Assembly: GCF_900101395.1 (NCBI RefSeq)
Contig: NZ_FMZO01000002.1
Span: forward strand, 509,840 to 573,839
Origin: Niabella drilacis
GTDB taxonomy: Bacteria > Bacteroidota > Bacteroidia > Chitinophagales > Chitinophagaceae
DNA: 64,000 nt
Direction: 5' to 3'
The translations under genes and the position numbers were made by a program. The notes beneath the pieces were generated by a model, which worked only from the letters and a program-made list of their open reading frames with translations, made no database searches and was not told where the DNA came from. Positions 32,894 through 64,000 of this stretch are shown here, piece by piece. Position 1 is the stretch's first letter. Every line of letters begins with the position of its first letter.

Positions 32894-34108
32894 TCAATAC
32901 CGGTGTGTGCCTGTAAACGCATCGGTATAGATCTCCCGGATCTGTTGTTCCGAAAGTTCCATAGGACAGCGGGCCAGCAGGCGTTTCTGAAGAAAGCCGT
33001 CTGCGGCCAGTACGCCAATAGCTGCCCGGGGGATTCTGTAGCCCGCCAGTGTTTCCGGAATGCCGATGTCTTTTGTTAATGCAGCCAGGGCCTCAATGCA
33101 TTTTCCTGCGGCTTCATTTATATCAAGATCCGCCGCGGGGGATCCCAGTGCCTGGTAAATGACCGCGAGCCGTTCTGCACAGGAGGGCGCAATATAACCC
33201 AGCACGTAGGGGATCAGCACCGCATTGGATGCACCATGGGCCAGGTGAAACTGGCCGCCCAGCGGGTAAGCCAGCGCATGTATGGCGCCCACTCCCGCAT
33301 TAAAGAATGCCATACCGGCAAGATAGCTGCCATAGGCCATGGCCGTGCGGGCCTCCCGGCTGCTACCTGTTTTTACGGCAGTACGCAGCGAAGAGCTGAT
33401 CAAGCGGATGGCTTGCAGTGCCAGTCCATCCGAATAGGGGTTGGCATTTACGGAAATAAAGGCTTCGATGGCGTGGGTAAGCGCATCCGCGCCGGTAGCG
33501 GCCGTAACACCGGGGGGAACGGAGAGCGTAAAAGCAGGGTCTACAATGGCAGCGTCCGCCAGCAGGTAATCATGTACGATCACATCCTTGGTGCGTTCCA
33601 GTGCCAGTACCGAAATATTGGTTACTTCGGCGCCCGTTCCGGAGGTGGTAGGGATCAGGATCCTGGGCAACCCGCGCTTTTCAATTTTTTGAGTTCCGCC
33701 CAGGTTAAGGTAATTGCTTACCGGACCGGCATTGTGTGCAAATACGGCCACCAGTTTGGCCATGTCAAGGGCGCTGCCTCCTCCAAAACCGATGACCAGT
33801 TTAAAATGGCCGTTCCTCCCAAAATCGATCGCGTTTTGCGCCGTTTTCACCGTAGGCTCTGGAAGGAGATCACTATAGATCGTATAAATTGTTTGTTGCT
33901 GTTCCAGGATGTCCAGCACCGGCCGAATGATCTGAAGCGATACCAGCGCAGGATCGGCAACGATCAGGACAGGACCGCCGCCCGCCTGCAGCAGCAGGTC
34001 AGGCAATTGCTGAATGGCCTGCCAGCCCATAGCAGTGGGAGGAACAGGTTTTATAAGGCTGGTACCGGAAGCGGATTTCAACAGGATTTCGTTAAAAGAT
34101 GCCGTCAT
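32894..34108 (-). CDS. Iron-containing alcohol dehydrogenase
   Basis: This 404-residue group III alcohol dehydrogenase should reduce or oxidise a small aldehyde/alcohol in the cytoplasm with NAD(P)H. Visible motifs are the nucleotide-binding GFGGGSALDMAK, PTTSGTGAEVT, and the metal ligands Asp and His in TGADALTHAIEAF. Two further His lie in AGVGAIHALAYPLGG and FHLAHG. It is divergent from the first ceramidase-like gene, marks the left border of the catabolic island and could handle an aldehyde from an aldolase step. A maleylacetate-reductase-like activity cannot be excluded. Confidence 0.88.
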   Translation of the reverse strand: MTASFNEILLKSASGTSLIKPVPPTAMGWQAIQQLPDLLLQAGGGPVLIVADPALVSLQIIRPVLDILEQQQTIYTIYSDLLPEPTVKTAQNAIDFGRNGHFKLVIGFGGGSALDMAKLVAVFAHNAGPVSNYLNLGGTQKIEKRGLPRILIPTTSGTGAEVTNISVLALERTKDVIVHDYLLADAAIVDPAFTLSVPPGVTAATGADALTHAIEAFISVNANPYSDGLALQAIRLISSSLRTAVKTGSSREARTAMAYGSYLAGMAFFNAGVGAIHALAYPLGGQFHLAHGASNAVLIPYVLGYIAPSCAERLAVIYQALGSPAADLDINEAAGKCIEALAALTKDIGIPETLAGYRIPRAAIGVLAADGFLQKRLLARCPMELSEQQIREIYTDAFTGTHRY

Positions 34109-34232
34109 AAAAGATGCAATAATTTTTTTGAATCACCACCTAAATTCGATTATCTTAGTCGCTATTGAGCAATAGTGATGCCTGGCATAAAATTATAAAA
34201 AGTGGCCGGCAGGCAGCTGTTGCTGCAGGATC

Positions 34233-34251
34233 GTATTATGATTGCGTAGAA
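34233..34251 (+). promoter_or_regulatory. Candidate island regulator site, copy 1
   Basis: GTATTATGATTGCGTAGAA lies 34 bp upstream of the first ceramidase-like gene, in the divergent region with the iron alcohol dehydrogenase. It matches 16 of 19 positions of a sequence upstream of the aminotransferase operon (41598-41616). A 14-bp palindrome (CTATTGAGCAATAG) is nearby at 34162-34175. The AraC protein of the island is the obvious candidate binder; that is inference. Confidence 0.45.
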
Positions 34252-34285
34252 AAATAGCAAAACGTTTCTTATTGTTTAAGATTAA

Positions 34286-35653
34286 ATGATGAACGAAAAG
34301 ATGCTGTCAGCCGGTACGGCAACAACAGAGATCACTCCGCCGGTTGGTTCCATTATAAACGGAGACTTTTTTTCGCACCGTGCGCAGTCGGTCGGGGACC
34401 CGCTTTACGCCAAGGCTATCGTGTTGCAATCGGGTGCCATCCGCTTTGCGTTGGTGATGGTGGATACCTGCTCGCTTACTTATGAGTTCCTGGGCCCTGT
34501 AAAACAGCAGATAGAAGCAATAACGGGCATCCCTCAGCAACACCAGCTGATCGCAGCCACACATATTCATTCCGGCGGGTCGGTTAACGGTATTTTTTTG
34601 TCGGAAGTGGATACCGCCTATTGTGCCCTCCTGGGCAAAGCCCTGGTGCAGGTAGTTGCGAAGGCTTTTGAGTGCCTGACGCCCTGCATGGTTGCCTATG
34701 GATCGGTTCCGGTGCCGGAACACATGGTTTGCCGGCGGTATCATATGAAAAAGGACTTTACGCCTTTTGACCCGTTTGGGAAGGGTACAGACAGGGTTGT
34801 AACCAATCCTTTCGGGTATGAAGACCAGATACTGGAGCAGGCCGGTGAAACGGATCCGGAACTGGCTTTTATGGCCCTCCGTTCACTGGAGGGAACATGG
34901 CTGGCCGTACTGGCAAACTATTCCCTGCATTATGTAGGTGATTTTTCAAAAACAGTGGTCTCCGCCGATTATTTCGGGCATTTTGCCCGTTCGCTAAAAG
35001 AAAGGCTGGGAGCGGGCGCCGACTTTGTGGCCCTTATGTCAAACGGCACCAGCGGTAACATAAATATCTGGGATTTTTTAAATCCGCACCGCTATCCCGG
35101 CGAACCGTTTGAAAAAAGCAGGTTAATTGGCCGGGAGCTGGCAGCGCATATTGTTGATTGTTTGCCGCAATTACAGTGGGATGCTGCCGCAACGCTTTCG
35201 GCAGGCGCCGCGGTGTTTGAGCTGCCGGTGCGTAAACCCGGGCATGCGGCATTGATGCGGGCGCAGCAACAGGTGGAGGGGGGCGTATTGGAAGGGCGCA
35301 GGTCCCTGGATCGGGAAACCGTACAACGGATCTATGCAAGAGAGCAATTGCTTTTAGCTGCTGAGCCGGATCATTGCCCGGTATATATCCAGGGAGTCCG
35401 GATCGGTGCGGGGCGGATCGGTGCGTTTCCCGGGGAGCTCTTTGCTGAAACAGGGCTGTGGCTGAAAGAACGCTTCCGGGGTACCCCTTATTTTACCATT
35501 TGCCTGGCAAACGGGAATATCGGCTATGCGCCACCTCCGCATGAGCTGGAGGCAGGAGGATATGAGACCTGGCGTTGCCGTACAAGCAAACAGGAGGCGG
35601 GTGCCGAGCCGGAAATTAAAAGCCGGATGGAGCAGCTGCTAAAAGGGTTATAA
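34286..35653 (+). CDS. Neutral/alkaline ceramidase-type amidase, cytoplasmic (A)
   Basis: The 455-residue protein follows the catalytic domain of neutral ceramidases, zinc amidases that cut N-acyl bonds. Matching elements are a TATTEITPP start, zinc His in AATHIHSGG (His93/His95), and a second His in NYSLHYVGD followed by SADYFGH. SNGTSGNIN stands at the nucleophile region, then GAFPGELF with the Glu ligand, and NGNIGYAPPPHELEAGGYE with the Tyr region. The C-terminal beta domain and the signal peptide of true ceramidases are absent, so it should act on a small cytoplasmic N-acyl compound. A second homolog lies at 45432-46739. Confidence 0.78.
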   Translation: MMNEKMLSAGTATTEITPPVGSIINGDFFSHRAQSVGDPLYAKAIVLQSGAIRFALVMVDTCSLTYEFLGPVKQQIEAITGIPQQHQLIAATHIHSGGSVNGIFLSEVDTAYCALLGKALVQVVAKAFECLTPCMVAYGSVPVPEHMVCRRYHMKKDFTPFDPFGKGTDRVVTNPFGYEDQILEQAGETDPELAFMALRSLEGTWLAVLANYSLHYVGDFSKTVVSADYFGHFARSLKERLGAGADFVALMSNGTSGNINIWDFLNPHRYPGEPFEKSRLIGRELAAHIVDCLPQLQWDAAATLSAGAAVFELPVRKPGHAALMRAQQQVEGGVLEGRRSLDRETVQRIYAREQLLLAAEPDHCPVYIQGVRIGAGRIGAFPGELFAETGLWLKERFRGTPYFTICLANGNIGYAPPPHELEAGGYETWRCRTSKQEAGAEPEIKSRMEQLLKGL

Positions 35654-35670: not shown

Positions 35671-36543
35671 TCAGGCCGAAGCATCTACCGTGCGCCGGTA
35701 ATCAGTAGGCGTCATTTTTTTGATCTTTTTAAACTGCCGGTTAAAATTCGCCAGGTTTTTAAAACCACATTCATACGCGATCTCTACTACATTCTTGTTT
35801 TTTTCGGCGATCAGTTTGCAGGCGTATCCCACTCTTACCGTATTGAGGTATTCTACAAAAGTGGTCCGGTAATTTTCTTTGAAAAAATTGCAAAAAGTAG
35901 TGATCGCCATATTCGACCGTGCTGCTATTTCGGGGAGTGAGATGTCGCTGTCGAAATTGCGCATGATGTATTCGGTGATCTTTGCGGACCGGTCGGAGCC
36001 ATTCCAGCATCCCTTTTGCACATATCCCGGGCTCGCCAGCAATTCATATTCCCTGGTATGGGCCAGCAGGTGAAAAATATTGAAGAGCGCCGATAACCGT
36101 TCCAGCCCTGTCATTGTCGGCATCTGCTTCATGATATTGTTGATCTGGTTCCTGGTGTCTCCCTGGATCACCATCCCGTGGGATGCCAGTTGAAATACTT
36201 TTTTCAGTTTTTCCATTTCCGGGATCTCCAGGAATTTTTCTCCCAGGAATTTTTCAACAAACTGGATCACGATCCCATCCGCCTGTTCCCGGGCTTCTCC
36301 GTTTACATAGTTTTCATCATTCAGCCATACATGCTGAAGCCCGGGGCCCATAAAGACGAGGTCTTCTTTATCAAAATACCCGATATGGTCGCCCACCATC
36401 CGGCGGCCGGTACTGCTGGTGATCAACACCAGCTCATATTCGGGATGGTAATGCCAGGGGCAGGGAAAAAACTGGCCACTTTCACGAAACACAATAAATG
36501 ACTTATCATAATCCTGGGGCAAACGTTGTTCAATCGCTTTCAT
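35671..36543 (-). CDS. AraC-family transcriptional regulator
   Basis: This 290-residue regulator has an N-terminal cupin-like sensing domain (FPCPWHYHPEYELVLI) and a C-terminal double helix-turn-helix. Its blocks are ISLPEIAARSNMAITTFCNFF and VVEIAYECGFKNLANFNRQFKK. It is the only regulator in the island, lies head-to-head with the sialidase-like operon, and is convergent with the first ceramidase-like gene. It probably controls the flanking operons in response to a pathway sugar or intermediate. Confidence 0.92.
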   Translation of the reverse strand: MKAIEQRLPQDYDKSFIVFRESGQFFPCPWHYHPEYELVLITSSTGRRMVGDHIGYFDKEDLVFMGPGLQHVWLNDENYVNGEAREQADGIVIQFVEKFLGEKFLEIPEMEKLKKVFQLASHGMVIQGDTRNQINNIMKQMPTMTGLERLSALFNIFHLLAHTREYELLASPGYVQKGCWNGSDRSAKITEYIMRNFDSDISLPEIAARSNMAITTFCNFFKENYRTTFVEYLNTVRVGYACKLIAEKNKNVVEIAYECGFKNLANFNRQFKKIKKMTPTDYRRTVDASA

Positions 36544-36929: not shown

Positions 36930-37949
36930 ATGAAAAAAATGATCGCACTCGCTGTTGTTCTGCTGCTAGCCCGGCTTTGCCCGGCACAGTTTCCGGCCCC
37001 CGTTACCGCTCCTGCATCAGGGGGGACGGAGATCTGGAGCGGGGCGCCGCACAATGCCTTTACCGATCTGATCGAATACAAAGGATATATATACTGCAGC
37101 TTCCGGGAGGGATCGGGGCATGTGCCCGGCTCCAATGGCGCCGGCCGTATCCTTCGCACAAAGGACGGTAACACCTGGGAATCCTTCGCCCTGATTCGTA
37201 AAGACGGTATTGATCTGAGGGATCAGAAGCTTTCGGTAATGCCGGATGGGCGTATGCTTTGCCTGATGGGCGGGTCGGTATACGATACCGCAAAGAAACC
37301 TTCCCGCCTGCTGGGTATGTACCCTCATGTAGCCTTTATGGGAAAGGATATGAAATTTACGACGCCTGAAAAAGCGGTGATCGGAAACCCTGGTCATCAC
37401 TGGGTGTGGCGGCTTACCTGGTATAAGGGGGTTGGTTATGGCATCGACTATGGAAGCGGGCGGTCTGCCACGCTGGTGAAAACAACAGATGGTAAAACCT
37501 TCACCGGCATAACGGATCTGGAGGTGGACGGAATGCCCAACGAATCGACGATCCGGTTTGATAAAAAGGGAAAAATGTATATCCTGATCCGGAGGGAGCA
37601 GGGCGATAAGCTGGGTGTACTGGCTACGGGGAAGGCCCCTTTTACTTCTTTCAGCTATCAAAAACTGGATTACCGTTTGGGCGGGCCCGATTTTATGTTT
37701 ACGCCGGATCAGAAAAAACTGATCGTGGGAACGCGCCTGTATCTGCCGGGCGGAGCCAAAACGGGTATCCTTGTTACAGACCTCAGCGGCAGGCTGTTAA
37801 GGACGGTGGAGCTGGAGAGCGGGGGCGATTGCAGCTACCCCGGGATGCTGGTGAGGAGAAAAGAACTTTGGATCAGCTACTATTCCTCGCATAGAGGGAA
37901 AACGAATATCTATTTTACCCGCATTCCACTCAATGACCTTTTAAAATAA
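36930..37949 (+). CDS. Exported sialidase-like beta-propeller protein
   Basis: This 339-residue protein has a signal peptide ending in LCPAQ. The mature part resembles the six-bladed sialidase/BNR superfamily. An early YCSFREGSGH takes the place of the sialidase Arg motif, an Asp-box-like RTKDGNTWES lies at about 76-85, and DGRMLCLMGG, ESTIRFDKKG and YPGMLVRRKELWISYYSS follow at blade positions. Only one clear Asp-box is seen. True sialidase activity is uncertain; another exo-glycosidase or binding role is as likely. It is the first gene of operon 1, 4 bp before the aldolase gene. Confidence 0.7.
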   Translation: MKKMIALAVVLLLARLCPAQFPAPVTAPASGGTEIWSGAPHNAFTDLIEYKGYIYCSFREGSGHVPGSNGAGRILRTKDGNTWESFALIRKDGIDLRDQKLSVMPDGRMLCLMGGSVYDTAKKPSRLLGMYPHVAFMGKDMKFTTPEKAVIGNPGHHWVWRLTWYKGVGYGIDYGSGRSATLVKTTDGKTFTGITDLEVDGMPNESTIRFDKKGKMYILIRREQGDKLGVLATGKAPFTSFSYQKLDYRLGGPDFMFTPDQKKLIVGTRLYLPGGAKTGILVTDLSGRLLRTVELESGGDCSYPGMLVRRKELWISYYSSHRGKTNIYFTRIPLNDLLK

Positions 37950-37953
37950 ACGA

Positions 37954-38817
37954 ATGAAACAATATCGCTTAAATCGGCTGATGAACCCGGATTCGGGTAA
38001 ATGTTTTGATGTAGCCATCGATCATGGCTTCTTTAATGAACTGGCTTTTTTAAAAGGAATTGAAGATATCCGCAACGCTGTTGAGGTGATCGTTAAGGCT
38101 AATCCCGATGCAATACAGTTAACGCCGGGCCAGCTGAAGTATTTACAGCGGGTGCCGGGGAAAGCGAAGCCCGCGTTGGTCCTGCGCACAGATGTTGCCA
38201 ATGTTTACGGCAAAGAGTTGCCTGCTGCTGCCTTTAGCAAAATGATAGAAACGCCGGTACTGCAGGCCGTAAGAGCAGATGCCGCCTGTATGTGTGTGAA
38301 CCTGTTCCGTATCCCCGGTGCTCCTGAAGTAACGGCGCAGTGTATCGACAACATCATCAAAATAAAAATGGAGGCAGAGCATTATGGTATGCCTCTGATG
38401 ATAGAGCCCCTGGTGTTCCGTGCCAATAGTGAAGCGGGCGGGTATATGGTAGACGGTGATCTGGATAAGATCCTGCCGCTGGTGCGGCAGGCCGTTGAGT
38501 TAGGAGCGGATATTATTAAAGCAGATCCCTGCGACCGGCTTGAAGAATATCATAAAGTGATAGAAACTGCAGGCGAAGTGCCGGTGTTGGTGCGGGGCGG
38601 AGGCAGGGCCGGTGATGAAGAGATCCTGAGGCGCACCCAGACATTGCTGGAGCAGGGGATCGCCGGTATTGTATACGGCCGCAACATTATCCAGCATGCT
38701 TTCCCCGATCGTATAACCAGGGCGCTGATGGGGATGGTACATACCGGCTATTCTGTTGATACCTGCCTGGCCATATTAAAAGAAGGAAAAACGGATCAAG
38801 ATGGAAGCGCCTGGTAA
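37954..38817 (+). CDS. DhnA/LacD-type class I aldolase
   Basis: The 287-residue protein belongs to the DeoC/FbaB/LacD TIM-barrel aldolases. The Schiff-base Lys is Lys189 in [20 protein letters not shown] near the start and [10 protein letters not shown] and [11 protein letters not shown] near the end are the family phosphate-binding and barrel motifs. It should cleave a phosphorylated keto-sugar or a related hydroxy-keto acid. Its 3' end overlaps the next gene by 17 bp, so the two are translationally coupled. The phosphate-site motifs suggest a phosphosugar made by the FGGY kinase of the same island. Confidence 0.82.
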
Positions 38818-39589
38818 TATATTCGATCTGAAAGGAAAAGACATATGGGTGATCGGAGGCGCCGGCTACCTGGGGCAGCCAACGGTGCAGGTATTAACCG
38901 CGGCCGGCGCCACCGTGCTTTGCTGCGACCTGGACGGGCGCGCCGCAGGATTTGTGGCCGCAAGCGGACTGGAGGCAAGCGTTACACCGGTTGATATCAA
39001 TACCGGTGATGAAGCAGGGGTGAAGGCCTTTGTTGAAAGCCAGGTAGCGGAGCGGGGGATACCGCAAGGCCTGGTGGATCTATCCTTTGGCGCTACTGCT
39101 AAAATTTTGGAGGAGCTTACTGCAGAGGAATTCAATAATGCGAATAAGGCGCTTACCAATACATTTTTGATGGCCCGGGAAGTAGGCACCCGTATGGCGG
39201 AGCACCAGGCCGGCAGCATCGTATTATGCTCCAGCATGTATGGCAATGTAGCTCCTTACCCGGCGGTGTATGACGGGTTGGACATGAATAAGAACCCTGT
39301 TGAATATGGAGCCGGAAAGGCGGCCATCATACAGATGACCCGCTACCTGGCTGTACACTGGGGACGGAAGAATGTACGGTGCAACTGTGTTTCGCCGGGC
39401 CCGTTTCCAAATCCCGGCGTCCAGGAAAAGCATCCCGAGTTCATTAAACGGTTGTCGGAGAAATCGCCCATGGGCCGTGTAGGCAGGAAGGATGAAATTG
39501 CAGGAACTGTTGCCTTCTTAATTTCAGAAGCCGCCTCTTACATTACCGGGCAGAATATCCGGGTTGATGGAGGGTGGACGGCCTGGTAA
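38801..39589 (+). CDS. SDR-family oxidoreductase (intact active site)
   Basis: This 262-residue classical short-chain dehydrogenase has the cofactor motif GGAGYLG at about 19-25. The active-site Ser lies in LCSSMYG, and the pair Tyr169/Lys173 is in [14 protein letters not shown] and a C-terminal [10 protein letters not shown] complete the fold. An Asp after the second strand (CCDLDG) favours NAD(H). It overlaps the aldolase gene by 17 bp and is followed within 3 bp by an aldo/keto reductase gene. It is likely to oxidise a sugar hydroxyl in the same pathway. Confidence 0.88.
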
Positions 39590-39592
39590 GTA

Positions 39593-40480
39593 ATGAAGAT
39601 GAAAGGACCGATACAAAAGATCGCACTGGGTACCGTTACTTTCGGACGGGAAATTGACCGGCTGCAGTCGTTCCGGGTCATGGACGAAGCGGCAATAAGG
39701 GGCATCCTGTTTTTTGATACGGCAGAAGCGTATGGCCAGGGCGCGTCGGAAACCATTATTGGCAGCTGGCTGCAGGCACATCCTTCAATGAAACAACAGG
39801 TGACCATCGCCAGCAAGCTGCTTCCTCCCTATAGTTCCGCATCCTTTAAACAGCGTGTTGAAGCATGCCTCCGGCGGCTGAAGCGTTCGTATATCGATCT
39901 GCTCTTTTTTCACAGCTGGGATCCATCTGTTTTAAACCCGGATGTATTGATCCGTGCAGAAGCACTGATACAACAGGGCGTAGTGAAAGCCTTTGGCGTC
40001 AGTAATTTCAATGCTGCACAGCTAACCAGCCTGTTGGAAGTACAGCAGCGTTATCGGCTGTCCCCGGTTGCAGCTGTACAAAATAATCATAACCTGGCTG
40101 TTTCAGACCTGGATGTATCGCTGCTTTCCCTTTGCAGGAAACACCAGGTCAGGGTCATTACCTATAGTCCGCTGGGCGCCGGTTTTCTTACCGGAAAGCA
40201 CACGCGCCGTATTGAGCAGGGATCGCGGTTTGACCGGATGCCGGCACACCGGGATATTTATTTTACCAAGGAAAGCCTGGAATCTTTACAAAGATTGAGC
40301 ACGGCAGCCGGCGGGCAAAAAGACCTGCAGGTACAGTGGGCGCTGGCCTGGGCGCTGCATCATCCGGATGTAGACCTGGTCCTGGTTGGGGCCCGCTCCG
40401 TTGAACACCTGCAGCAGGCCGTTGATGCCGCATTGTTTGATGACCCGGACTTCCTGCAACGGCTGCGGCCGTTTAAATAA
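39593..40480 (+). CDS. Aldo/keto reductase (operon 1)
   Basis: This 295-residue NADP(H)-dependent oxidoreductase has the AKR tetrad: Asp and Tyr in FFDTAEAYGQG, Lys in IASKL, and His in LLFFHSWD. The cofactor-binding end includes YSPLGAGFLTG and VGARSVEHLQQA. It starts 3 bp after the SDR stop codon. It probably reduces a sugar aldehyde or keto group; a second AKR in the island is only distantly similar. Confidence 0.85.
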   Translation: MKMKGPIQKIALGTVTFGREIDRLQSFRVMDEAAIRGILFFDTAEAYGQGASETIIGSWLQAHPSMKQQVTIASKLLPPYSSASFKQRVEACLRRLKRSYIDLLFFHSWDPSVLNPDVLIRAEALIQQGVVKAFGVSNFNAAQLTSLLEVQQRYRLSPVAAVQNNHNLAVSDLDVSLLSLCRKHQVRVITYSPLGAGFLTGKHTRRIEQGSRFDRMPAHRDIYFTKESLESLQRLSTAAGGQKDLQVQWALAWALHHPDVDLVLVGARSVEHLQQAVDAALFDDPDFLQRLRPFK

Positions 40481-40628
40481 GCGGCACCGCCCGCCTTTTT
40501 TTGCAATAGTTTCGCTTACTTTTTTGTATGCCCGGTTGCATACACAAACACTGGCAACGGGAAAAAGCGCCTGTGAGCACCGCTATCCGGATTTTTTGTA
40601 TTTTATGCCCCTGAAATCAAATGGCTAT

Positions 40629-41438: not shown

Positions 41439-41530
41439 CCGGTTTTACGAATGGGATTTGTTCGCGACAGGCCGGGGAAGGTTAGGGTAAAACGGAGCGG
41501 ATATATACAGGAAAAAAGATGCTGTTTGAC

Positions 41531-41557
41531 AGGGGGCTTACCGGCTCCCTTTTTTTA
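41531..41557 (+). terminator. Rho-independent terminator of operon 1
   Basis: AGGGGGC and GGCTCCCT pair (with one G-T) around a short loop and are followed by seven T residues. It separates operon 1 (36930-41438) from operon 2. Confidence 0.8.
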
Positions 41558-41597
41558 TGCGATCCCGGTAGGGCAGCCGGGATAAAAATAAAAATTA

Positions 41598-41616: not shown

Positions 41617-41697
41617 CCTGTGGCATCAAACCGGATTTTATAGAGCAAATTTGAAACCGGAAATATCCGGTTGCCGGATCTGGAAATAATAAGTTTT

Positions 41698-44379: not shown

Positions 44380-44423
44380 GTGAGTGATGAAACGTGAATA
44401 ATAAAAAAATAAATGATTCGGTT

Positions 44424-45430: not shown

Positions 45431-45431
45431 A

Positions 45432-56030: not shown

Positions 56031-56053
56031 TGCTTAACTACAAAAGACAGAAA

Positions 56054-57529
56054 ATGAAAAATTATACATACATTTTATATATCGTTCTGCTGGCGTTCAT
56101 ACCGGTATCCTGTACCCGTAACCTGGAGCTGGAGCCGGTCAGCACGATCTCCACGGCCTCCTTCTGGAAAACAGAAGATGATGCAAATGGCGCGCTCAGG
56201 GGAATGTATATACGGCTGCGGAGCGTTACTGCCACCAACCTGTATTTATGGGGAGAAGCCCGGAGCCAGGATATGAAACAGTCGGTGGGCAATGATTTTA
56301 ATAACCTGAGGATCTTTAATAATACGCTCGATGCTACTACTGCCGGTCCGGACTGGAGCTCCGTTTACCGCGTGGTTAATGATGCCAATCTTATTTTAAA
56401 ATACCTTCCGGGCATTGTGTTTGGAGCAGACGCAAACAGGAACCGGCTGCTTGCCGAAGCGTTTGCCATGCGCGCGTTTTGTTATTTCATTATGACGAAG
56501 ACCTGGGGCACACTGCCATTGGTGCTGGAGCCTACCGAGGGATACGACCCTGCGATACTTTACCGGGAGCGATCCGGAGTGAATGAAGTATTTGTACAAA
56601 TCAAAAATGATATTGAAAAGGCATTGTCCCTATTCCCCGATAATAATTTCCAGGCCGGCAGGAACCGGTGGTCAAAACCCGCGGTAAATGCGTTGAAAGG
56701 CGATGTCTTTTTATGGACTGCCAAAAAACTGAACGGAGGCAATAACGACCTTAATACGGCACTGACGGCTTTGAACGAGGTTGGTGCCGCCGATGTGCAA
56801 CTGCTGACCGGTTTCGAAAGCGTGTTTAACTATGACAACAAAGGCAACAAAGAAATATTGATGGCCAATAATTTTCAGCAGTTTGAAACAGGCGGTACAT
56901 TCATGGCCAATATGTATATTGATGCCTATCCTCCCAACGCAGATCCGGTTGCCAGGGCCCTTATCGGAACCGTTGGCGGCGGAAACTACTGGACGCTGTC
57001 CGACGATACCCGCAGCCGGTTTAAAGATGATGATACCCGGAAGGCAGCTACCTATACGGAGTTGTACAGCGTGGATCCGGCTACCGGTGCAAAGACCAGT
57101 TTCTATGGCTGCATCCAGCGCAAATTCAATGGTACCGTTGATGCAGGTGCGCGGCTCTTCATTGATGATGTTATCTTATACCGGTACGCCGATGTGTTAC
57201 TGATGAAAGCTGAAGCACAGAATGCATTGGGGCAGGATCCTGCCAACGCCATCAATGAGGTAAGGAAAAGAGCCTTTGGTGCCAGGTTCAGCGAACATAC
57301 ATTTGTAACCGGTTCAAAAGAAGCCAATGACAATGCGATCCTTGAGGAGCGGTTGCTTGAATTTTTATATGAAGGAAAGTATTGGTGGGATATACTGCGT
57401 TTTGACAAAGCCGCAACGCAGATCCCTTATTTTAAAGCCAATCCCGGTCATACCTACAAGTATATCTGGCCGCTTTCACTGGGCATCCTTAGCTCGGAGC
57501 CAAAAGTACAGCAGAATACCGGGTATTAA
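56054..57529 (+). CDS. SusD/RagB-family lipoprotein of the catabolic island
   Basis: This 491-residue surface lipoprotein has a signal peptide ending in the lipobox FIPVSC. SusD helices are seen in RLLAEAFAMRAFCYFIM, LLMKAEAQNALGQDPANAI and ERLLEFLYEGKYWWDILRF. I used the MKNYTY start; an earlier ATG at 56030 overlaps the susC stop codon and adds eight residues. It pairs with the SusC just upstream and precedes two exported propeller proteins in the same direction. Confidence 0.92.
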   Translation: MKNYTYILYIVLLAFIPVSCTRNLELEPVSTISTASFWKTEDDANGALRGMYIRLRSVTATNLYLWGEARSQDMKQSVGNDFNNLRIFNNTLDATTAGPDWSSVYRVVNDANLILKYLPGIVFGADANRNRLLAEAFAMRAFCYFIMTKTWGTLPLVLEPTEGYDPAILYRERSGVNEVFVQIKNDIEKALSLFPDNNFQAGRNRWSKPAVNALKGDVFLWTAKKLNGGNNDLNTALTALNEVGAADVQLLTGFESVFNYDNKGNKEILMANNFQQFETGGTFMANMYIDAYPPNADPVARALIGTVGGGNYWTLSDDTRSRFKDDDTRKAATYTELYSVDPATGAKTSFYGCIQRKFNGTVDAGARLFIDDVILYRYADVLLMKAEAQNALGQDPANAINEVRKRAFGARFSEHTFVTGSKEANDNAILEERLLEFLYEGKYWWDILRFDKAATQIPYFKANPGHTYKYIWPLSLGILSSEPKVQQNTGY

Positions 57530-57574: not shown

Positions 57575-59029
57575 ATGAAGAAACGATCACTATCCATCGC
57601 ATTCCTGATGGCGGCGGGTCTTGCCGGTAACAGCGGAAGGGCCCAGGAAGGGCCTGTGCTTGACCTGGGTAACAAGCGCGAGCTTTTTGTAGACCGCTAC
57701 CTGGTGGCACAAACAAAGGAGGTTACATTCAAGCTGCATCATCCGCATAATGAAGGACCGGTATTGTACTTTAATCAGCCCTGGGAAGGGAACTTCAGCG
57801 GCTATGGAACAGTAATAAAAGATGCAGGATTGTACCGGCTGTACTACAGGGGCATCCGCCAGTCCGGCAAGGATGGCGCGGAAGCCGAGGTGACCTGTTA
57901 CGCAGAGTCCATAGACGGGCAGCATTGGAAAAAACCGGATCTGGGCATCTATGAGATCGGGAATTCACGGGCCAATAATGTGATCCTGGCGCATGTGGCA
58001 CCGGTAACCCATAATTTCTCCCCCTTCCTGGATACAAATCCCGAAACAAAACTGGCCTACCGGTATAAAGCGCTGGGAGGGATAAAAAAAAGCGGGCTGA
58101 TCCCCTATGTGTCTGCAGATGGGATCCACTGGAAACCGCTCCGGGAGCAACCGGTGATCACCCAGGGCGATTTCGATTCGCAGAATGTAGCGTTCTGGTC
58201 GGCCGCCGAAAAGCAATATGTGTGCTATCTCAGGACCTCGGCAAAAAGCGGTAATAAATCATTCCGGTCCGTCAGCAGGACCACTTCTGCTGATTTTATT
58301 AACTGGACAACGCCGGAGCCGATGCAGTTTGGAGATGTTCCGCTGGATCATTTGTATACGCAGCAAACCGGTGCCTACTACCGGGCGCCGCATATCTATG
58401 TGGCTATAGGTGCCCGGTTTATGCCGGGCCGGCAGGTGGTATCTGATGAGCAGGCTGCGGCGCTGAAAGTGAACCCGGCTTATTATAAAGATTGTTCCGA
58501 TGCGGTGCTGATGACAACGCGGGGCGGTAATGAATACCACCGGGAGTTCCTGGAATCATTTATCAGGCCGGATATCGGGCTGGAGAACTGGGTCTCCAGG
58601 ACCAACTACCCGGTTTTGAACGTGGTGCCAACCAGCGAGACCGAAATGTCGGTTTTCATGAATGAAAGCTATGCGCAGGAGGGGGCGCATATCAAAAGGT
58701 ATTCGATGCGTATTGACGGGTTCGCCTCGCTTAACGCAGGCATGAAGGAGGGGACCGTGCTTACCCGGCCCTTTGTGTTTTCGGGCAAAGAGCTGGAGTT
58801 GAACTATTCAACTTCTGCGGCAGGGGCGCTTAAGATAGAGGTTCAGGACATAAAAGGCAATCCCATACCGGGCTATACCATGAGCGATGCACAGGAAATA
58901 ATTGGAAATGAGATCAAACGCATCGCTTCCTGGAAGGGGAACACGGACCTGTCTGCCCTGGCCGGAACCCCGGTAAAACTGCGTATCTATTTAAAGGACG
59001 CAGACCTTTTTTCATTAAAATTTAATTAG
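57575..59029 (+). CDS. Exported beta-propeller protein of an uncharacterised family, tandem copy 1
   Basis: This 484-residue protein has a signal peptide and a mature start KRELFVDRYLVA. It recalls a large family of five-bladed propellers, near GH32/GH43, seen in Planctomycetota, Verrucomicrobiota and Bacteroidota. Conserved blocks are HHPHNEGPV, PWEGNFSGYGTV, LYYRG, EVTCYAESIDG, THNFSPFLDTNP and WVSRTNYPVLNVV. A C-terminal beta-sandwich of about 100 residues includes YTMSDAQEIIGNE. No member with a proven function is known to me. The tandem gene that follows is a close paralog, and both stand behind SusC/SusD, so a hydrolase or lyase for the imported glycan is likely. Confidence 0.75.
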   Translation: MKKRSLSIAFLMAAGLAGNSGRAQEGPVLDLGNKRELFVDRYLVAQTKEVTFKLHHPHNEGPVLYFNQPWEGNFSGYGTVIKDAGLYRLYYRGIRQSGKDGAEAEVTCYAESIDGQHWKKPDLGIYEIGNSRANNVILAHVAPVTHNFSPFLDTNPETKLAYRYKALGGIKKSGLIPYVSADGIHWKPLREQPVITQGDFDSQNVAFWSAAEKQYVCYLRTSAKSGNKSFRSVSRTTSADFINWTTPEPMQFGDVPLDHLYTQQTGAYYRAPHIYVAIGARFMPGRQVVSDEQAAALKVNPAYYKDCSDAVLMTTRGGNEYHREFLESFIRPDIGLENWVSRTNYPVLNVVPTSETEMSVFMNESYAQEGAHIKRYSMRIDGFASLNAGMKEGTVLTRPFVFSGKELELNYSTSAAGALKIEVQDIKGNPIPGYTMSDAQEIIGNEIKRIASWKGNTDLSALAGTPVKLRIYLKDADLFSLKFN

Positions 59030-59130: not shown

Positions 59131-60588
59131 ATGCAAAAAAGACATCTACTGCTTTGGTCACTGATATTATTTACCGCGGTAATGCCGCGTGCACAAACCA
59201 CCCTGCCACTGCCGGTAGGGAGCAACCGTGAGCTTTTTGTTGACAGCTACCTGATCGACAGGTTGAATAATGTAACACAGCAGCTGCATCATCCCCATAA
59301 TGAAGGCCCTGTGCTCAAATTTGACAATCCATGGGAAGGCAACTTCAGTGCGTACTGTACCATTATAAAGGATGGAGACCGGTTTAAGCTTTACTACCGG
59401 GGCATCCGCAATCCAGGCAGGGATGGCAACGATAACGAAGTGACCTGCTACGCGGAATCTGCAGATGGGATCAACTGGATAAAGCCCCGGCTGGGCATCT
59501 ATACCGTAGGTGGTACAAAAGACAATAATGTGGTATTGGCGCATGTGGCGCCCGCTACTCATAATTTCAGTCCTTTCCTGGATGCGAACCCCAATGCGCC
59601 TGCTGCGGAACGGTACAAGGCCGTGGGAGGAACAGACAGTACCGGGCTCTTTGCATTTGTATCTGCAGACGGTATTCATTGGAAAAAGAAGCGGGCAACG
59701 GCTGTTTTCAAAACCGGGGTGTTTGATTCTCAGAATGTGGCTTTCTGGTCGGAAAGTGAAAAACAATATGTGTGTTATTTCAGGACCTGGAGTGATGGAG
59801 GGTTTACCCGGTACAAAGGATTCCGGTCGGTGAGCCGGACTACATCCCGGGACTTTATCAACTGGAGCGCCCCGGTTAAAATGACGTTCGGCAATACGCC
59901 GCTGGATCATTTGTATACGCAGCAGACCAGCCCGTATTTCCGCGCCCCGCAGATCTACCTGGCTATCGGCGCCCGGTTCATGCCCAAGCGTCAGGTCATT
60001 ACAGAAGAACAGGCCAAAGCGCTGGATGTAAACCCGAACTATTTTAAAGATTGCTCAGATGCGATTTTAATGAGCACCCGTGGCGGAAGCGTTTACGACC
60101 GTACATTTATGGAATCCTATATCCGTCCCGGCATCGGTCTGGGAAACTGGGTTTCCCGTTCCAACTACCCGGTATTGAATGTAGTACAAACCAGCCCTTC
60201 GGAACTTTCGATCTATGTGAACGAACATTACGCACAGCCTACTTCGCATATCAACCGGTATTCTTTGCGGATTGACGGGTTTGCTTCCCTGCACGGGGAC
60301 TTTCAGGGGGGCACCGCGGTTACGAAGCCCTTCATCTTTAAGGGAAGGGAACTGGAAATTAACTATGCAACTTCGGCAGCGGGCTTTGTTAAGGTTGAGC
60401 TCCTGGATGAAAAAGGCAGCCCGGTCCCGGGCTATACCGTGAACGACGCACAGGAAATTATTGGCAACGAAATCGCGCGGATCGTTTCCTGGAAAGGGAA
60501 TACCAACCTGTCGGCCCTGGCTGGGAAAGCCGTTCGGTTAAAGTTCTATCTTAAAGACGCGGACCTGTATGCATTAAAGTTTAACTAA
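59131..60588 (+). CDS. Exported beta-propeller protein of an uncharacterised family, tandem copy 2
   Basis: This 485-residue paralog of the preceding gene shares nearly every block in the same order (RELFVDSYL, HHPHNEGPV, PWEGNFSAYCTI, EVTCYAESADG, THNFSPFLDANP, WVSRSNYPVLNVV, YTVNDAQEIIGNE). The signal peptide starts at MQKRHLL; the frame is open 26 codons further upstream but those residues are not a leader. Differences are scattered rather than clustered, which suggests an old duplication with both copies kept functional. A terminator follows the gene. Confidence 0.75.
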   Translation: MQKRHLLLWSLILFTAVMPRAQTTLPLPVGSNRELFVDSYLIDRLNNVTQQLHHPHNEGPVLKFDNPWEGNFSAYCTIIKDGDRFKLYYRGIRNPGRDGNDNEVTCYAESADGINWIKPRLGIYTVGGTKDNNVVLAHVAPATHNFSPFLDANPNAPAAERYKAVGGTDSTGLFAFVSADGIHWKKKRATAVFKTGVFDSQNVAFWSESEKQYVCYFRTWSDGGFTRYKGFRSVSRTTSRDFINWSAPVKMTFGNTPLDHLYTQQTSPYFRAPQIYLAIGARFMPKRQVITEEQAKALDVNPNYFKDCSDAILMSTRGGSVYDRTFMESYIRPGIGLGNWVSRSNYPVLNVVQTSPSELSIYVNEHYAQPTSHINRYSLRIDGFASLHGDFQGGTAVTKPFIFKGRELEINYATSAAGFVKVELLDEKGSPVPGYTVNDAQEIIGNEIARIVSWKGNTNLSALAGKAVRLKFYLKDADLYALKFN

Positions 60589-60798: not shown

Positions 60799-61608
60799 TT
60801 ATTTGTAGGCCTCATTTCCTTTAGCTGTGGAAGTGCCGGATGCATGGATCCGGGTACTGAGCCCCTGGAAGTAGCCGGACAGCCCTACTACATCGGCGCC
60901 CACACTCACAAACTGGTACCCCATTTCTTTAAAAGCATCCAGGTGATCAATACTTCCTGTAGTGCCGGCAAATTTCCCATACCGGCGGGCGGCGGCAGCT
61001 ACTTTTTTACGGGCCTCCAGGAGTTCGGGGTGACTAAAGTTGCCCGGTGCGCCGATTCCCTGGCTGAAATCGCCCGGTCCAAAAAATAGCATATCATATC
61101 CTTCCAGTTGAGCAATCGCATCAAGGTCCTTCAAAGGTTCCGGGTCCTCGATCTGCAGGATCACAAACCGCTCCCGGTTGGCGGTTGCCAGGTATTCCTG
61201 GAAATCCATATTGGTATATCCGCCATCTGCATTGCCTCCGTCGATCGGTCTTCTGCCAAGAGGGTGGAACCGGGTCATATGCACTACACCGGCGGCATCC
61301 TGTAAACTCATGATATGTGGCACCATAATGCCCGTAGCATCCATCTCCAGTGGCCGGACGAGATCGCTATAGCTGCCGCGGGGTACACGCACCAGCAGGT
61401 CCGCATCGTAGGCTTTGGCTGCCCATACCTGGCTGTTAAGTACCTGCCAGTCGGGGGCGCAATGCTCCTGGTCTACCCATATGCAGTCAAAGCCGCTGCG
61501 CGCAGCCAGTTCCACAACCTGGGCGTTAGAGATATTGATCTTAATGCAGCTGGCAAAGCCGCCGCTTCTTAATTTTTGTAATACTTTGCTGGATCTCATT
61601 TTCATCAT
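60799..61608 (-). CDS. HpcH/HpaI-family aldolase
   Basis: This 269-residue metal-dependent class II aldolase splits 2-keto-3-deoxy or 4-hydroxy-2-keto acids into pyruvate and an aldehyde. Family motifs are WVDQEHCAPDW with the metal/base region, RVPRG, LQIEDPEPLKDLDAIA, and GPGDFSQGIG with the second metal ligand. It is downstream of an MFS transporter on the same strand (28-bp gap). In the island it could carry out the terminal cleavage, giving a semialdehyde for the aldehyde dehydrogenase or iron dehydrogenase. Confidence 0.88.
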   Translation of the reverse strand: MMKMRSSKVLQKLRSGGFASCIKINISNAQVVELAARSGFDCIWVDQEHCAPDWQVLNSQVWAAKAYDADLLVRVPRGSYSDLVRPLEMDATGIMVPHIMSLQDAAGVVHMTRFHPLGRRPIDGGNADGGYTNMDFQEYLATANRERFVILQIEDPEPLKDLDAIAQLEGYDMLFFGPGDFSQGIGAPGNFSHPELLEARKKVAAAARRYGKFAGTTGSIDHLDAFKEMGYQFVSVGADVVGLSGYFQGLSTRIHASGTSTAKGNEAYK

Positions 61609-61636: not shown

Positions 61637-62881
61637 CTATCCGGCCTGTTTTTTTCTGATCATTAAAAGAAGCAGGGCACATAGAACCATAATAACGGCC
61701 GCGGCTTGAAACAGCACCTGCATATTTACAGAAGCATCTCTAAGTACGCCTCCGGCATAAATGCCCAACCCGCCTACGATGCAGGCAAACAGGTTCAGGA
61801 TGCCATAACCCGTGGCCCGGTATTTTTCATGCGCGATCATGCATAAGACGGGCATCAGGTTGGCGTCTGTAAATGTGCGGGTAAGGGCGTAAACCATAAA
61901 TCCTCCGATAGCAACGGCCAGCAGGGCGGAGGATCCTGCAATGAATACCGCCGGAGCTGCTATAAGCAGCCCTATCGCCGGCAGCAGGATCCGGGCGTAT
62001 TTGTTGGAACGATGCCAGCGGTCGGCCAGGAGCCCGCCCAGGAGTACGCCGGCGAAGCTGAGCGGGTATACATACCATGTTGCGTAGATGCCGGCCTGGG
62101 TTTGGGTGAGGTTAAAGTGTTCCTTGTAGTAGGTAGGAAGCCACCCCAGGATCATCCAGCCCACCACACCCATAAGCCCCCAGAAAATAACCAGCAGGAC
62201 AAAGGAGGAATGGCGGAACAGGTTTTTGATCCCGTCTGTAAAGCGCAGGGGAGATACTGCCGCCGGGGTTGATGGAGGTGGCATACGCCCCGGCGCGTCT
62301 TTGAGCCAGAAAAGCATAAATACGGCATAAACGATACCGAAAATACCAAATACGGTAAATGCAGAGCTCCAGTGATGATTTTCGGCAATCCATCCGCCTA
62401 AAAATCCCATAGACTGGCCAATCATGATGCCGCCATTGTGGATGCCGGTTGCCAGTGAGCGGGTATTGCCCTGGTGGTAATCTGCTATGAGGGCAAGTGC
62501 CGCGGGAATATAACAGGCCTCGCTGATGCCCATCAGGGCACGTGTTGCCAGCAATTGTTCAAAATTTTGCGCATGGGCAGTAAGCCAGGTTACGGCCGAC
62601 CATACAAAGAGGCTGACGATAATGACCCGGCTGCGGCTGAACCGGTCTGCAAGAAAACCGGCATAAGGGCTCAGGAGGCCATATACCCACAGGAAAACGG
62701 AGGTCAGCAGGCCAAACTGGGCATCGGTCATCGGTATCGCTTCTACGATGGAGCCGCGCATGGTGGTAAGCATGATGCGGTCCAGGTAATTAAGAAAGCC
62801 TATGACAAATAAAAGAAAAACGGTGAGCCAGGCACCGCGTGTGGCTTTTGCAGCAGGCAGGAGATCGTTATGCATATTCAT
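61637..62881 (-). CDS. MFS transporter (sugar-acid/ACS or spinster-like)
   Basis: This 414-residue inner-membrane transporter has about 12 membrane segments. Its motifs are GFLNYLDRIMLTTMRG, AGFLADRFSRSRVI (loop 2-3) and RALMGISEACYIPAALALIAD. These recall the anion:cation symporter and spinster-like groups that carry hexuronates, aldonates and similar organic anions. It heads a two-gene operon with the HpcH/HpaI aldolase, which fits import of a sugar acid or its intermediate. Confidence 0.85.
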   Translation of the reverse strand: MNMHNDLLPAAKATRGAWLTVFLLFVIGFLNYLDRIMLTTMRGSIVEAIPMTDAQFGLLTSVFLWVYGLLSPYAGFLADRFSRSRVIIVSLFVWSAVTWLTAHAQNFEQLLATRALMGISEACYIPAALALIADYHQGNTRSLATGIHNGGIMIGQSMGFLGGWIAENHHWSSAFTVFGIFGIVYAVFMLFWLKDAPGRMPPPSTPAAVSPLRFTDGIKNLFRHSSFVLLVIFWGLMGVVGWMILGWLPTYYKEHFNLTQTQAGIYATWYVYPLSFAGVLLGGLLADRWHRSNKYARILLPAIGLLIAAPAVFIAGSSALLAVAIGGFMVYALTRTFTDANLMPVLCMIAHEKYRATGYGILNLFACIVGGLGIYAGGVLRDASVNMQVLFQAAAVIMVLCALLLLMIRKKQAG

Positions 62882-62923
62882 CAGGCCGAAGGTAGGGGTT
62901 GTCGCCGATTCCTTTTGTTACTT

Positions 62924-62989
62924 TTATTTTTGATTATGATACTATATTGCGGCAAAGGGCATCAGCAGGCTCCCGGGGCAGGATCGTAT
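62924..62989. promoter_or_regulatory. Divergent control region of MFS and symporter with shared motifs
   Basis: On the minus strand, GTATCATAATC (62942 downward) matches the first part of the shared island motif (GTATCATGATT). On the plus strand, GCAGGATCGTAT (62978-62989) is identical over 12 bp to 34225-34236, upstream of ceramidase-like gene A. The region separates the MFS operon from the symporter gene. Confidence 0.35.
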
Positions 62990-63083
62990 AAAAAACGGGC
63001 AAATATTTAAATTGCGGGCTGCGCGTACAGTGATATTTTTACATCCCGGTCCGGGAGCTTCCAATGAACGATAAATTTTGCAT

Positions 63084-64000
63084 ATGAAGAAATTGCCTTT
63101 TATTGACTTAAGTGTGATCCTGCTTTACCTGGTTGCCATGGTACTGGTAGGATACCTGTTCTCAAAGAAGAACAAAAATGCCGATCAGTTCACAACAGCC
63201 TCCGGCCGTATACCGGGCTGGGCGGTGGGACTTTCTATTTATGCCACTTTTTTGAGCAGCAACACGTTTCTTGGCGTTCCGGGAAAAGCTTTTGGAAGCA
63301 ACTGGAATGCATTTGCGTTCAGCCTTTCCATGCCGCTGGCAGCCTGGGTAGCAGCAAAATACTTTGTTCCGTTCTACCGCGGTGTAGGCGAAGTATCGGC
63401 CTATACCAACCTGGAGAAGCGGTTTGGCCCCTGGGCCCGCACCTATGCCGTGATCTGTTTTTTGCTCACGCAGATCGCCCGTATGGGATCCATCTTCTTT
63501 GGCTTGTCGCTTACACTTCAGGCGCTTACCGGGTTTAATATGCAGGTTATTATGCTGGTTACGGGGGCCTGTATCATCCTTTATACAGTGATGGGGGGCA
63601 TCGAAGCGGTGATCTGGACGGAAGTGGTACAGGGTATTTTAAAAACACTGGGCGCTATCCTTATCGTATACCTGGTTATCTCCAATGTAAACGGAGGCAT
63701 TTCTACGATCATGGATATCGGGAAGGCGGATCATAAATTCAGTTTGGGCGGCCTGAACCTCGACTTTACCAGTTCCGGTTTTTGGGTGGTGCTGTTATAC
63801 GGCTTCTTTATCAATCTTAATAATTTTGGTATGGATCAGAACTATGTGCAGCGCTATCATACCGCCACCTCTCAAAAGGAAGCAGCCCGCTCAGTCTGGC
63901 TCTGTGTCTGGATCTATATCCCGGCATCCCTGCTGTTCTTTATCATTGGTACCTGCCTGTACGCCTATTACCAGCTCAACCCGGCATTGCTGGATGCGGT
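63084..64000 (+). CDS. Sodium:solute symporter (SSS family), 3' end cut off by the window
   Basis: The first 305 codons are present. The N terminus (PFIDLSVILLYLVAMVLVGYLF) and blocks YATFLSSNTFLGVPGKAF, YTNLEKRFGPWARTYA, YTVMGGIEAVIWTEVVQG and FGMDQNYVQRY are characteristic of SSS transporters for sialic acid, sugars or other solutes. About eight membrane helices are visible before the window ends. As the inner-membrane partner of the SusCD system it likely brings the released monomer into the cytoplasm. Confidence 0.88.
   Translation, partial: MKKLPFIDLSVILLYLVAMVLVGYLFSKKNKNADQFTTASGRIPGWAVGLSIYATFLSSNTFLGVPGKAFGSNWNAFAFSLSMPLAAWVAAKYFVPFYRGVGEVSAYTNLEKRFGPWARTYAVICFLLTQIARMGSIFFGLSLTLQALTGFNMQVIMLVTGACIILYTVMGGIEAVIWTEVVQGILKTLGAILIVYLVISNVNGGISTIMDIGKADHKFSLGGLNLDFTSSGFWVVLLYGFFINLNNFGMDQNYVQRYHTATSQKEAARSVWLCVWIYIPASLLFFIIGTCLYAYYQLNPALLDA

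Follow-up and report, generated by a model that had tools for sequence, protein, structure and literature searches.

Which substrate is served by the long block of sugar-related genes that closes a 64,000-nucleotide stretch of the Niabella drilacis genome (hereafter the window), and is this block inherited as one set? The host is a soil bacterium of the Niabella group of Chitinophagaceae. A first-pass annotation had regarded the block as a complete route for one unusual N-acylated amino sugar or amino-polyol, and all the protein classes that it listed are present in the sequence, as judged mostly from Pfam matches and from the translations (Table 1). At the heart of the block lies a genuine module, which occurs as one unit across several bacterial phyla. 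With somewhat less than an even chance, in our judgement, this would be a catabolic module for an N-acylated amino sugar that carries no C6 phosphate before de-amination, a diacetamido substrate being suggested.

Organization of the gene block

Fourteen genes form a forward-strand run from 36930 to 52152, with small gaps or overlaps. Downstream, the SusC/SusD pair lies beside degradative genes, the arrangement that marks a polysaccharide utilisation locus. Export, or its absence, was judged by eye from the N-termini throughout.

Table 1. Genes of the block, with positions in the window
Feature	Position	Strand	Basis	Remarks
Iron-containing alcohol dehydrogenase (Fe-ADH)	32894..34108	-	Pfam	accessory
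Ceramidase-like amidase A (cerA)	34286..35653	+	profile comparison	no signal peptide by eye; accessory
AraC-family regulator	35671..36543	-	Pfam	92-96% relatives in two Niabella loci
Exported sialidase-fold protein	36930..37949	+	predicted model	without Pfam match
LacD/DeoC class I aldolase	37954..38817	+	Pfam	
SDR1	38801..39589	+	Pfam	
Aldo/keto reductase 1	39593..40480	+	Pfam	
SASA-type carbohydrate esterase	40626..41438	+	Pfam	extra gene; start probably near 40626 rather than the ORF's listed 40386
Class III aminotransferase	41698..43098	+	Pfam	core; start probably near 41698
NagA-like deacetylase	43110..44315	+	TIGR00221	frequent partner
NagB-like protein, phosphate site changed	44394..45356	+	TIGR00502 comparison and alignment	core
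Ceramidase-like amidase B (cerB)	45432..46739	+	PF04734, N-terminal part only	core
FGGY kinase	46741..48084	+	Pfam	core
Aldo/keto reductase 2 (AKR2)	48100..49056	+	Pfam	frequent partner
Gfo/Idh/MocA oxidoreductase	49067..49993	+	Pfam	frequent partner
SDR2	49990..50769	+	Pfam	frequent partner
Aldehyde dehydrogenase	50782..52152	+	Pfam	
SusC-type receptor	52800..56030	+	Pfam	
SusD-type lipoprotein	56030..57529	+	Pfam	
Exported protein	57575..59029	+		without Pfam match; one family with 59131-60588
Exported protein	59131..60588	+		without Pfam match; relatives in L027, L032, L037
HpcH/HpaI aldolase	60799..61608	-	Pfam	
MFS transporter	61637..62881	-	Pfam	57% relative adjoins AKR2 in L016
SSF symporter	63078..64000	+	Pfam	gene continues beyond the window end (L090)

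The exported propellers of the first-pass annotation can be upheld for one protein, that encoded upstream of the LacD aldolase, whose predicted model (pLDDT 84) has a sialidase-type propeller fold. Its best match in a structure search is an uncharacterised Dyadobacter protein, followed by sialidases, with GH93 and GH43 also listed and the P. aeruginosa pseudaminidase 2w38 at rank 17. By eye, AFTDL occupies the site where sialidases presumably carry their first arginine motif. This structure comparison pointed to no particular glycan. For the two exported proteins encoded after SusD the label is unproven, since neither has a Pfam match and the model of the second is poor (pLDDT 49).

Sequence features of the enzymes

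The NagB-like protein reaches 52.7 bits against the TIGR00502 equivalog, whose cut-off is 236.9, and has no Pfam match at E 0.001. Throughout its family (n = 45), Asp72 and His143 are kept in 45/45 sequences and residue 148 is Glu or Asp in all 45; Asp72, His143 and Glu148 are, we assume, the catalytic residues of GlcN6P deaminase (NagB). Lys208 is gone in 45/45 and the Thr41-Thr44 loop is altered in all 44 sequences that cover it, this loop and lysine being what we take to be the 6-phosphate site of that enzyme. Judging from the alignment, a site that keeps the catalytic residues and lacks the lysine and the phosphate loop probably acts on a sugar that is not 6-phosphorylated at deamination. 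Position 172, an Arg in GlcN6P deaminase, is Leu in 45/45 members, and a conserved Arg is gained at 209. Two further proteins of the host serve as controls: its NagB passing the TIGR00502 cut-off, L086, retains Lys208 and a TGSS loop and carries Tyr at 172, and its other NagB relative, L087, retains Lys208 while lacking the loop. The loss of Arg172 alone is therefore not diagnostic, and it was dropped as proof of a changed NagB site.

The NagA-like protein scores 245 against TIGR00221, above the cut-off of 225.65, and the metal ligands and catalytic Asp of GlcNAc6P deacetylase, as given in PMC6016474, are present in it. In the phosphate-binding region, where Asn-Ala and Arg were sought, FNAM is replaced by YDVF and the Arg is possibly kept after a longer loop. 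A loss of phosphate binding in this enzyme was dropped from consideration, because the Arg may be conserved behind this insertion. Together with Arg209 of the NagB-like protein, this candidate phosphate Arg leaves room for an anionic substrate.

With respect to the amidases, cerB covers positions 4-234 of the 509 of PF04734 and matches solved neutral ceramidases weakly. Its His89, His91, His187 and Glu367, presumably residues of the zinc-site type of neutral ceramidase, are invariant in the 23 aligned sequences (of 24 members); a full-length PF04734 N-terminal model, a C-terminal domain and export (by eye), the hallmarks of neutral ceramidase that were looked for, are lacking in cerB. The cerA protein has no Pfam match at E 0.001 and matches the cerB profile (hhalign 99.9%, E 5e-33).

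The best 60 solved relatives listed for the aminotransferase are amino-acid, amine and racemase enzymes. Among solved structures the FGGY kinase finds its best match in LsrK, and it falls below the equivalog cut-offs of xylulokinase (199.4 vs 380.25) and fuculokinase (86.1 vs 470.9). The LacD/DeoC aldolase is related to LsrF and keeps, in the alignment, what we take to be the Schiff-base lysine and the phosphate motif (GRN region) of LsrF / ADH-synthase-type enzymes. The best NCBIfam family for Fe-ADH is lactaldehyde reductase (289 bits vs a cut-off of 523), and the aldehyde dehydrogenase stays under the cut-offs of the NCBIfam families listed.

Inheritance and spread of the module

Of 17 genomes of the genus, the same 6 contain all four of the genes for the NagB-like protein, the aminotransferase, cerB and the Gfo/Idh enzyme, and the other 11 contain none of them. 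A genome scan gave 45 loci with NagB-like relatives, 28 genomes with a close one (54-91% identity) and 17 with a remote one, the named carriers including Niabella pedocola, N. aurantiaca and two Arenibacter species. The aminotransferase accompanies 25/28 close relatives vs 2/12 remote ones tested (of 17), and cerB 27/28 vs 1/12; at E <= 1e-130, with up to 4 candidates scored per genome, this aminotransferase is found in 1/395 phylum genomes, which is the window's own copy. The first-pass annotation had proposed to look for the co-occurrence of these genes with FGGY and SDR2 as well; among the 28 close loci, 21 hold some type of FGGY kinase and 10 hold SDR2. Other frequencies among these loci are 17/28 for a Gfo enzyme of some type, 11/28 for AKR2 and only 8/28 for LacD near the NagB-like gene. 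Relatives of the HpcH/HpaI aldolase (55-62%) occur in 5/28. The aldehyde dehydrogenase is distributed over the window, three Niabella loci and L017; cerA (relatives of 78% in L014 and 31% in L043), SusC/D, the exported proteins, HpcH and MFS vary in presence, and the esterase and Fe-ADH have no match in the fetched stretches (3-21 kb) of any of the 45 relatives. The single set claimed at first is therefore retained for the central genes, and not for the whole 31 kb.

Several parts seem interchangeable. The deacetylase of the close loci is nagA in 17, Amidohydro_2 (c11) in 5, both in none and neither in 6, and the FGGY kinases are of three remote types, of which none of the loci holds two, L039 having one plus a fourth type. 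Near remote NagB-like genes, 6/17 loci have a DegT aminotransferase within 2.5 kb (4 of these 6 near-identical and Caldatribacterium-type), 9/17 have a Gfo enzyme no further than 10 kb away, 3/17 show a PIG-L deacetylase and only 2/17 a kinase, while 4/17, which are short or sparse, show no partner sought; the profiles used were made from those very loci. This swapping of deacetylase, aminotransferase and kinase for unrelated or remote proteins in some relatives suggests a shared scheme in which the acyl group is taken off, nitrogen is removed, and the ketose is phosphorylated and then cleaved.

Proposed pathway and alternative substrates

From the gene families, their co-inheritance, the changed NagB site and the replacement of parts, all of them observed, we infer the reactions, their order and the substrate. 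Uptake would proceed through SusC/D and then MFS or SSF, followed by N-deacylation by the NagA-type enzyme and cerB. One nitrogen would be removed by the class III aminotransferase, leaving a ketone for the Gfo/Idh enzyme or SDR2 to reduce, whereas the C2 nitrogen would leave with aldose-ketose isomerisation through the NagB-like enzyme. The ketose would be phosphorylated by the FGGY kinase and cleaved by the LacD-type aldolase into dihydroxyacetone phosphate and an aldehyde, the latter finished by Fe-ADH or aldehyde dehydrogenase. Most copies encode two kinds of amidase as well as two kinds of enzyme that remove nitrogen, which suggests a substrate with two acetamido groups; our best guess is a 2,3- or 2,4-diacetamido sugar, perhaps a 6-deoxy one, of the sort that occurs in bacillosamine-type glycans of bacteria. 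A bolder version, which we consider doubtful, would be a dedicated pathway for such sugars (bacillosamine-type or 2,3-diacetamido) by which several phyla eat the rare surface glycans of other bacteria; in it, NagA, Amidohydro_2 and PIG-L deacetylases would stand in for one another around a phosphate-free NagB, as would class III and DegT aminotransferases.

The substrate may instead hold a single nitrogen, as in one N-acyl 6-deoxyhexosamine or hexosaminuronic acid (FucNAc, QuiNAc or GalNAcA type), deacylated by NagA/cerB, deaminated by the NagB-like enzyme and passed to FGGY and LacD, with the aminotransferase coming in at a later step, where it would act on an aldehyde or an amino acid formed along the way. 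This is possible, if on the unlikely side: three actinobacterial MAGs (1.3-1.8 Mb), which may be incomplete, have nagA, the NagB-like gene and the kinase without the aminotransferase, one of them also lacking cerB; the solved structures nearest to the aminotransferase are GABA-type enzymes and amino-acid racemases; and its gene adjoins LacD in several loci. However, the two amidase kinds, and the Gfo enzyme that accompanies either aminotransferase type, would need another reason. A nonulosonic acid route appears improbable. Sialidase-fold enzymes and the esterase would free pseudaminic or legionaminic acid, HpcH would split off pyruvate and the core would degrade the 2,4-diacetamido-2,4,6-trideoxyhexose, in line with the predicted sialidase fold and its pseudaminidase match, the SASA esterase and the HpcH of the window and five loci; but those five are few among the 28, AFTDL, by eye, stands at the presumed place of the first arginine motif, and the esterase is without match in the relatives' stretches.

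Ordinary catabolism of GlcNAc, GalNAc, xylulose or fucose by divergent enzymes would agree with the NagA score, and is nevertheless decidedly unlikely. Separate NagA and NagB genes, both above curated cut-offs, lie elsewhere in the host genome, the NagB lysine and loop are altered family-wide, and the NagB-like protein, FGGY kinase, Fe-ADH and aldehyde dehydrogenase are under the cut-offs of the families listed. With the inheritance of the core, this indicates that the module is not simply the GlcNAc pathway, as had been proposed from the window alone. Degradation of N-acyl lipids or ceramide, after the ceramidase name, is also unlikely, indeed hardly credible: the PF04734 match is limited to the N-terminal part, no signal peptide is seen, similarity to solved neutral ceramidases is weak and sugar enzymes surround the gene in the loci.

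Comparison with known systems

Among the titles and abstract openings listed from the open-licence literature, none describes the pathway, an absence that is weak evidence, and to our knowledge no route that breaks down rare di-amino sugars of bacteria has been characterised. For these, the preferred diacetamido reading offers a concrete, testable candidate route in named strains; if true, it would define a NagB subfamily whose members deaminate sugars that carry no phosphate, and would make action as a sugar amidase the likely role of cytoplasmic ceramidase-like proteins.

The sialic acid utilisation loci of Bacteroidota resemble the block in SusC/D, a sialidase-fold protein, an esterase, MFS/SSF and nag-type genes, but the aldolases of the module differ, and NanA, NanE or NanK were not recognised among the Pfam and NCBIfam matches of the block. 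Autoinducer-2 processing (LsrK-LsrF) shares the relatedness of kinase and aldolase; in contrast, the module has amino-sugar enzymes, and neither LsrG nor an Lsr transporter was recognised among the same matches. With the isomerase-kinase-aldolase routes for L-fucose and L-rhamnose the module has in common an FGGY kinase, possibly a DHAP-forming aldolase and lactaldehyde-type redox enzymes, whereas a NagB-like enzyme stands for the isomerase and the aldolase is of the LacD/LsrF type. Pairs of Gfo and DegT enzymes, such as NtdC/NtdA and WlbA/WlbE, act in 3-amino sugar metabolism, and the module likewise joins an oxidoreductase to an aminotransferase, although its setting is catabolic and its close clade has a class III aminotransferase. 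Finally, as in GlcNAc catabolism (NagA-NagB), a deacetylase adjoins an enzyme of the NagB superfamily, but here the latter lacks Lys208 and the phosphate loop, and a ketose-type kinase, an aminotransferase and a ceramidase-like enzyme are added.

Gene content of the island and its surroundings

The protein classes that the first-pass annotation had named are all present in the window, which belongs to a host genome of 6.1 Mb. The host is probably a member of the Niabella group, since one genome in the genus set has its NagB position in common with the Niabella pedocola locus. Ceramidase-like A gave no match in a Pfam search, and profile comparison relates it to ceramidase-like B. The SSF gene extends past position 64000, and a second sialidase-like protein lies 1.2-2.5 kb beyond the window end, followed by an AraC regulator and a GH32-like protein (all three named by eye). 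The G+C content is 0.45-0.48 over 1-28000 vs 0.50-0.53 over 28001-64000, a step that precedes the left edge of the island. Besides the NagA-like protein of the island, the host genome encodes two further NagA above the TIGR00221 cut-off. In a second unusual nag pair of this genome, close to an MFS-like transporter (by eye), the NagA exceeds its cut-off and the NagB relative, at 135.5 bits, falls short of it.

Coordinates of the features discussed (window positions unless a locus is named)
Feature	Position	Strand	Remark
Fe-ADH (iron-containing alcohol dehydrogenase)	32894-34108		
Ceramidase-like A	34286-35653		
Gene run	36930-52152	+	14 genes with small gaps or overlaps
LacD aldolase	37954-38817		
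Aminotransferase (class III)	41698-43098	+	
NagA-like	43110-44315	+	
NagB-like	44394-45356	+	
Ceramidase-like B	45432-46739		
FGGY kinase	46741-48084		
AKR2	48100-49056		
Gfo/Idh/MocA oxidoreductase	49067-49993		
SDR2	49990-50769		
HpcH/HpaI aldolase	60799-61608		
Second nag pair	G000:C21:472336-475750		host genome (L079, L087)
Small recurring protein	L022:2587-3129		
Small recurring protein	L025:17632-18144		
Small recurring protein	L031:3022-3489		
Propeller-like pair	L019:255-2528		actinobacterial MAG

Distribution of the core genes

A scan with the NagB-like protein as query, using one genome per species, yielded 45 loci, divided by identity into 28 close (54-91%) and 17 remote (43-47%) ones. 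The close clade is supported in the tree (97/95), and L041 (43% identity) joins it through a long branch, yet is counted among the remote loci. According to submitter titles, the close loci correspond to Bacteroidota (9), Planctomycetota (8), Actinomycetota (3), Spirochaetota (2), KSB1 (2), Verrucomicrobiota (1) and Hydrogenedentota (1), with two lacking a phylum. Bacteroidota fall into two separate clades of the NagB tree, which would be consistent with horizontal transfer without proving it.

As assembled, 25 of the 28 close genomes carry the aminotransferase (E <= 1e-100) and 27 carry ceramidase-like B (E <= 1e-40); among the 12 remote genomes tested, the counts are two (those of L041 and L049) and one (L041), respectively. 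On the fetched stretches around NagB, where many contigs are short, the close loci show ceramidase-like B (23/28), an FGGY kinase of some type (21/28), the aminotransferase at >= 55% identity (19/28), a Gfo enzyme (17/28), AKR2 (11/28) and SDR2 (10/28), and LacD lies near NagB in only 8/28. In a scan of 395 phylum genomes, the aminotransferase (E <= 1e-130, at most four candidates scored per genome) was found solely in the window's own genome, and the NagB-like protein matched in six other genomes (best E 9.4e-25, 31% identity). Within the genus, NagB-like, aminotransferase, ceramidase-like B and Gfo genes occur together in the same six of 17 genomes, and all four are absent from the remaining 11 at the thresholds used. 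For NagB, ceramidase-like B and aminotransferase, the pairwise identities measured across the window and 18 loci are correlated (Spearman 0.33-0.47, permutation p 0.0005-0.002), and shared organism history contributes to this; L013 was left out of the ceramidase-like B and aminotransferase alignments, and L035 out of the latter.

The island had been proposed as a single set, and this holds for a co-inherited core, the proposed boundary being too generous. Aminotransferase, NagB-like, ceramidase-like B and a kinase have the widest distribution (41698-48084, a span that also includes nagA). LacD and the oxidoreductases up to 50769 often accompany them, and the remainder of the island is accessory.

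Active-site residues of the NagB-like and NagA-like proteins

Alignment of the 45 NagB-like sequences to E. coli NagB (1cd5) revealed that Asp72 and His143 are conserved in all of them, with Glu or Asp at position 148. Lys208 is replaced by Gln or Glu and Arg172 by Leu in 45/45, and the Thr-Gly-Gly-Thr loop is shorter in the 44 sequences covering the region (L057 is cut off); the functional roles of these residues and of the loop are those that we presume for NagB. The host NagB that passes the TIGR00502 cut-off (L086) retains both Lys208 and the loop, with Tyr in place of Arg172, whereas a host relative below the cut-off (L087) retains, of these features, only Lys208. The argument for a changed site therefore rests on Lys208 and the loop and not on Arg172. 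A new conserved Arg directly follows position 208, and therefore another anion site is conceivable. The NagB family evidence and the co-inheritance strengthen the earlier proposal of an amino-sugar route distinct from that of GlcNAc.

In the NagA-like protein, the metal-ligand motifs described in PMC6016474 are conserved, and the phosphate-contacting Asn-Ala is Asp-Val in the Niabella type. An Arg may be retained beyond a longer loop, judging from the alignment, and given this, no loss of phosphate binding is claimed.

Other enzymes and a putative route

LacD aligned to MJ0400 and LsrF conserves the lysine and GRN motif region. The FGGY kinase has LsrK and xylulokinase as its closest structures and stays under the cut-off in each of the 12 families listed, and AKR2 is closest to oxidoreductase 1ynp, IolS and L-galactose dehydrogenases. 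In ceramidase-like B, His89, His91, His187 and Glu367 are invariant among 23 aligned sequences. Asp277 and Lys306, which presumably have PLP roles, are invariant in the aligned aminotransferases (19 relatives, 56-97% identical to the window's copy).

A diacetamido sugar would be the simplest explanation for two kinds of amidases and two kinds of nitrogen-removing enzymes, one with a candidate ketone reductase; the amidases would N-deacylate this sugar before both nitrogen-removing enzymes act. A ketose-type kinase and the LacD aldolase, following a phosphate-free NagB, suggest a sugar for which phosphorylation at C6 would be impossible, for example a 6-deoxy sugar. The route would end in DHAP and lactaldehyde, and the best match of Fe-ADH is lactaldehyde reductase (289 bits vs a cut-off of 523). 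The main weaknesses of this mechanism are three actinobacterial MAGs without the aminotransferase, the scarcity of LacD near NagB, the lack of Fe-ADH in the fetched stretches of relatives, and the fact that no sugar-acting enzyme was recognised in the 60 of 197 solved aminotransferase relatives listed.

Alternative architectures

The Niabella-type architecture combines nagA and FGGY, whereas four loci (L024, L027, L029 and L031, from Marinilabiliaceae, Arenibacter and Bacteroidales) carry an Amidohydro_2 protein (c11) and a different FGGY kinase (c22) in one run with HpcH, aminotransferase, NagB and ceramidase-like B, joined by LacD and an SSF symporter in three of the four. L028 keeps c11 and HpcH in a different order and without c22; a second NagB-like stretch (50% identity) lies near 14700 of the same Spirochaetaceae contig. 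Over the locus stretches of the 28 close loci, 17 have nagA, five c11, none both and six neither, although two of these six genomes (L021, L035) carry nagA on separate fetched stretches (L092, L099).

Other gene associations were also observed. Six stretches from genomes with the module (L022, L025, L027, L031, L036 and L092) share a protein of ~160-180 aa, for which a Pfam search with a single member gave no match; in L022 and L025 it is preceded by another small protein (c40). In L019, two propeller-like proteins (by eye, no visible signal peptide) stand ahead of an ABC transporter and the nagA-NagB-kinase-ceramidase-like B genes. On the aminotransferase stretches of L039, L041 and L100, an AraA-like isomerase and another FGGY kinase occur with Amidohydro_2 or LacD-like genes, possibly an isomerase-based variant of the route.

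The remote loci, which may deal with a different substrate, contain a Gfo enzyme (9/17), a DegT aminotransferase within 2.5 kb (6/17, four of them near-identical Caldatribacterium-type), a PIG-L deacetylase (3/17) or an FGGY kinase (2/17), with none of these partners in 4/17, the partner profiles having been built from the same loci; L043 also has a ceramidase-like gene. From the two architectures and these remote partners, we infer that the chemistry seems constant (N-deacetylase, aminotransferase, Gfo dehydrogenase and NagB-like enzyme) while the folds are swapped, which would be the best clue to the function of the module.
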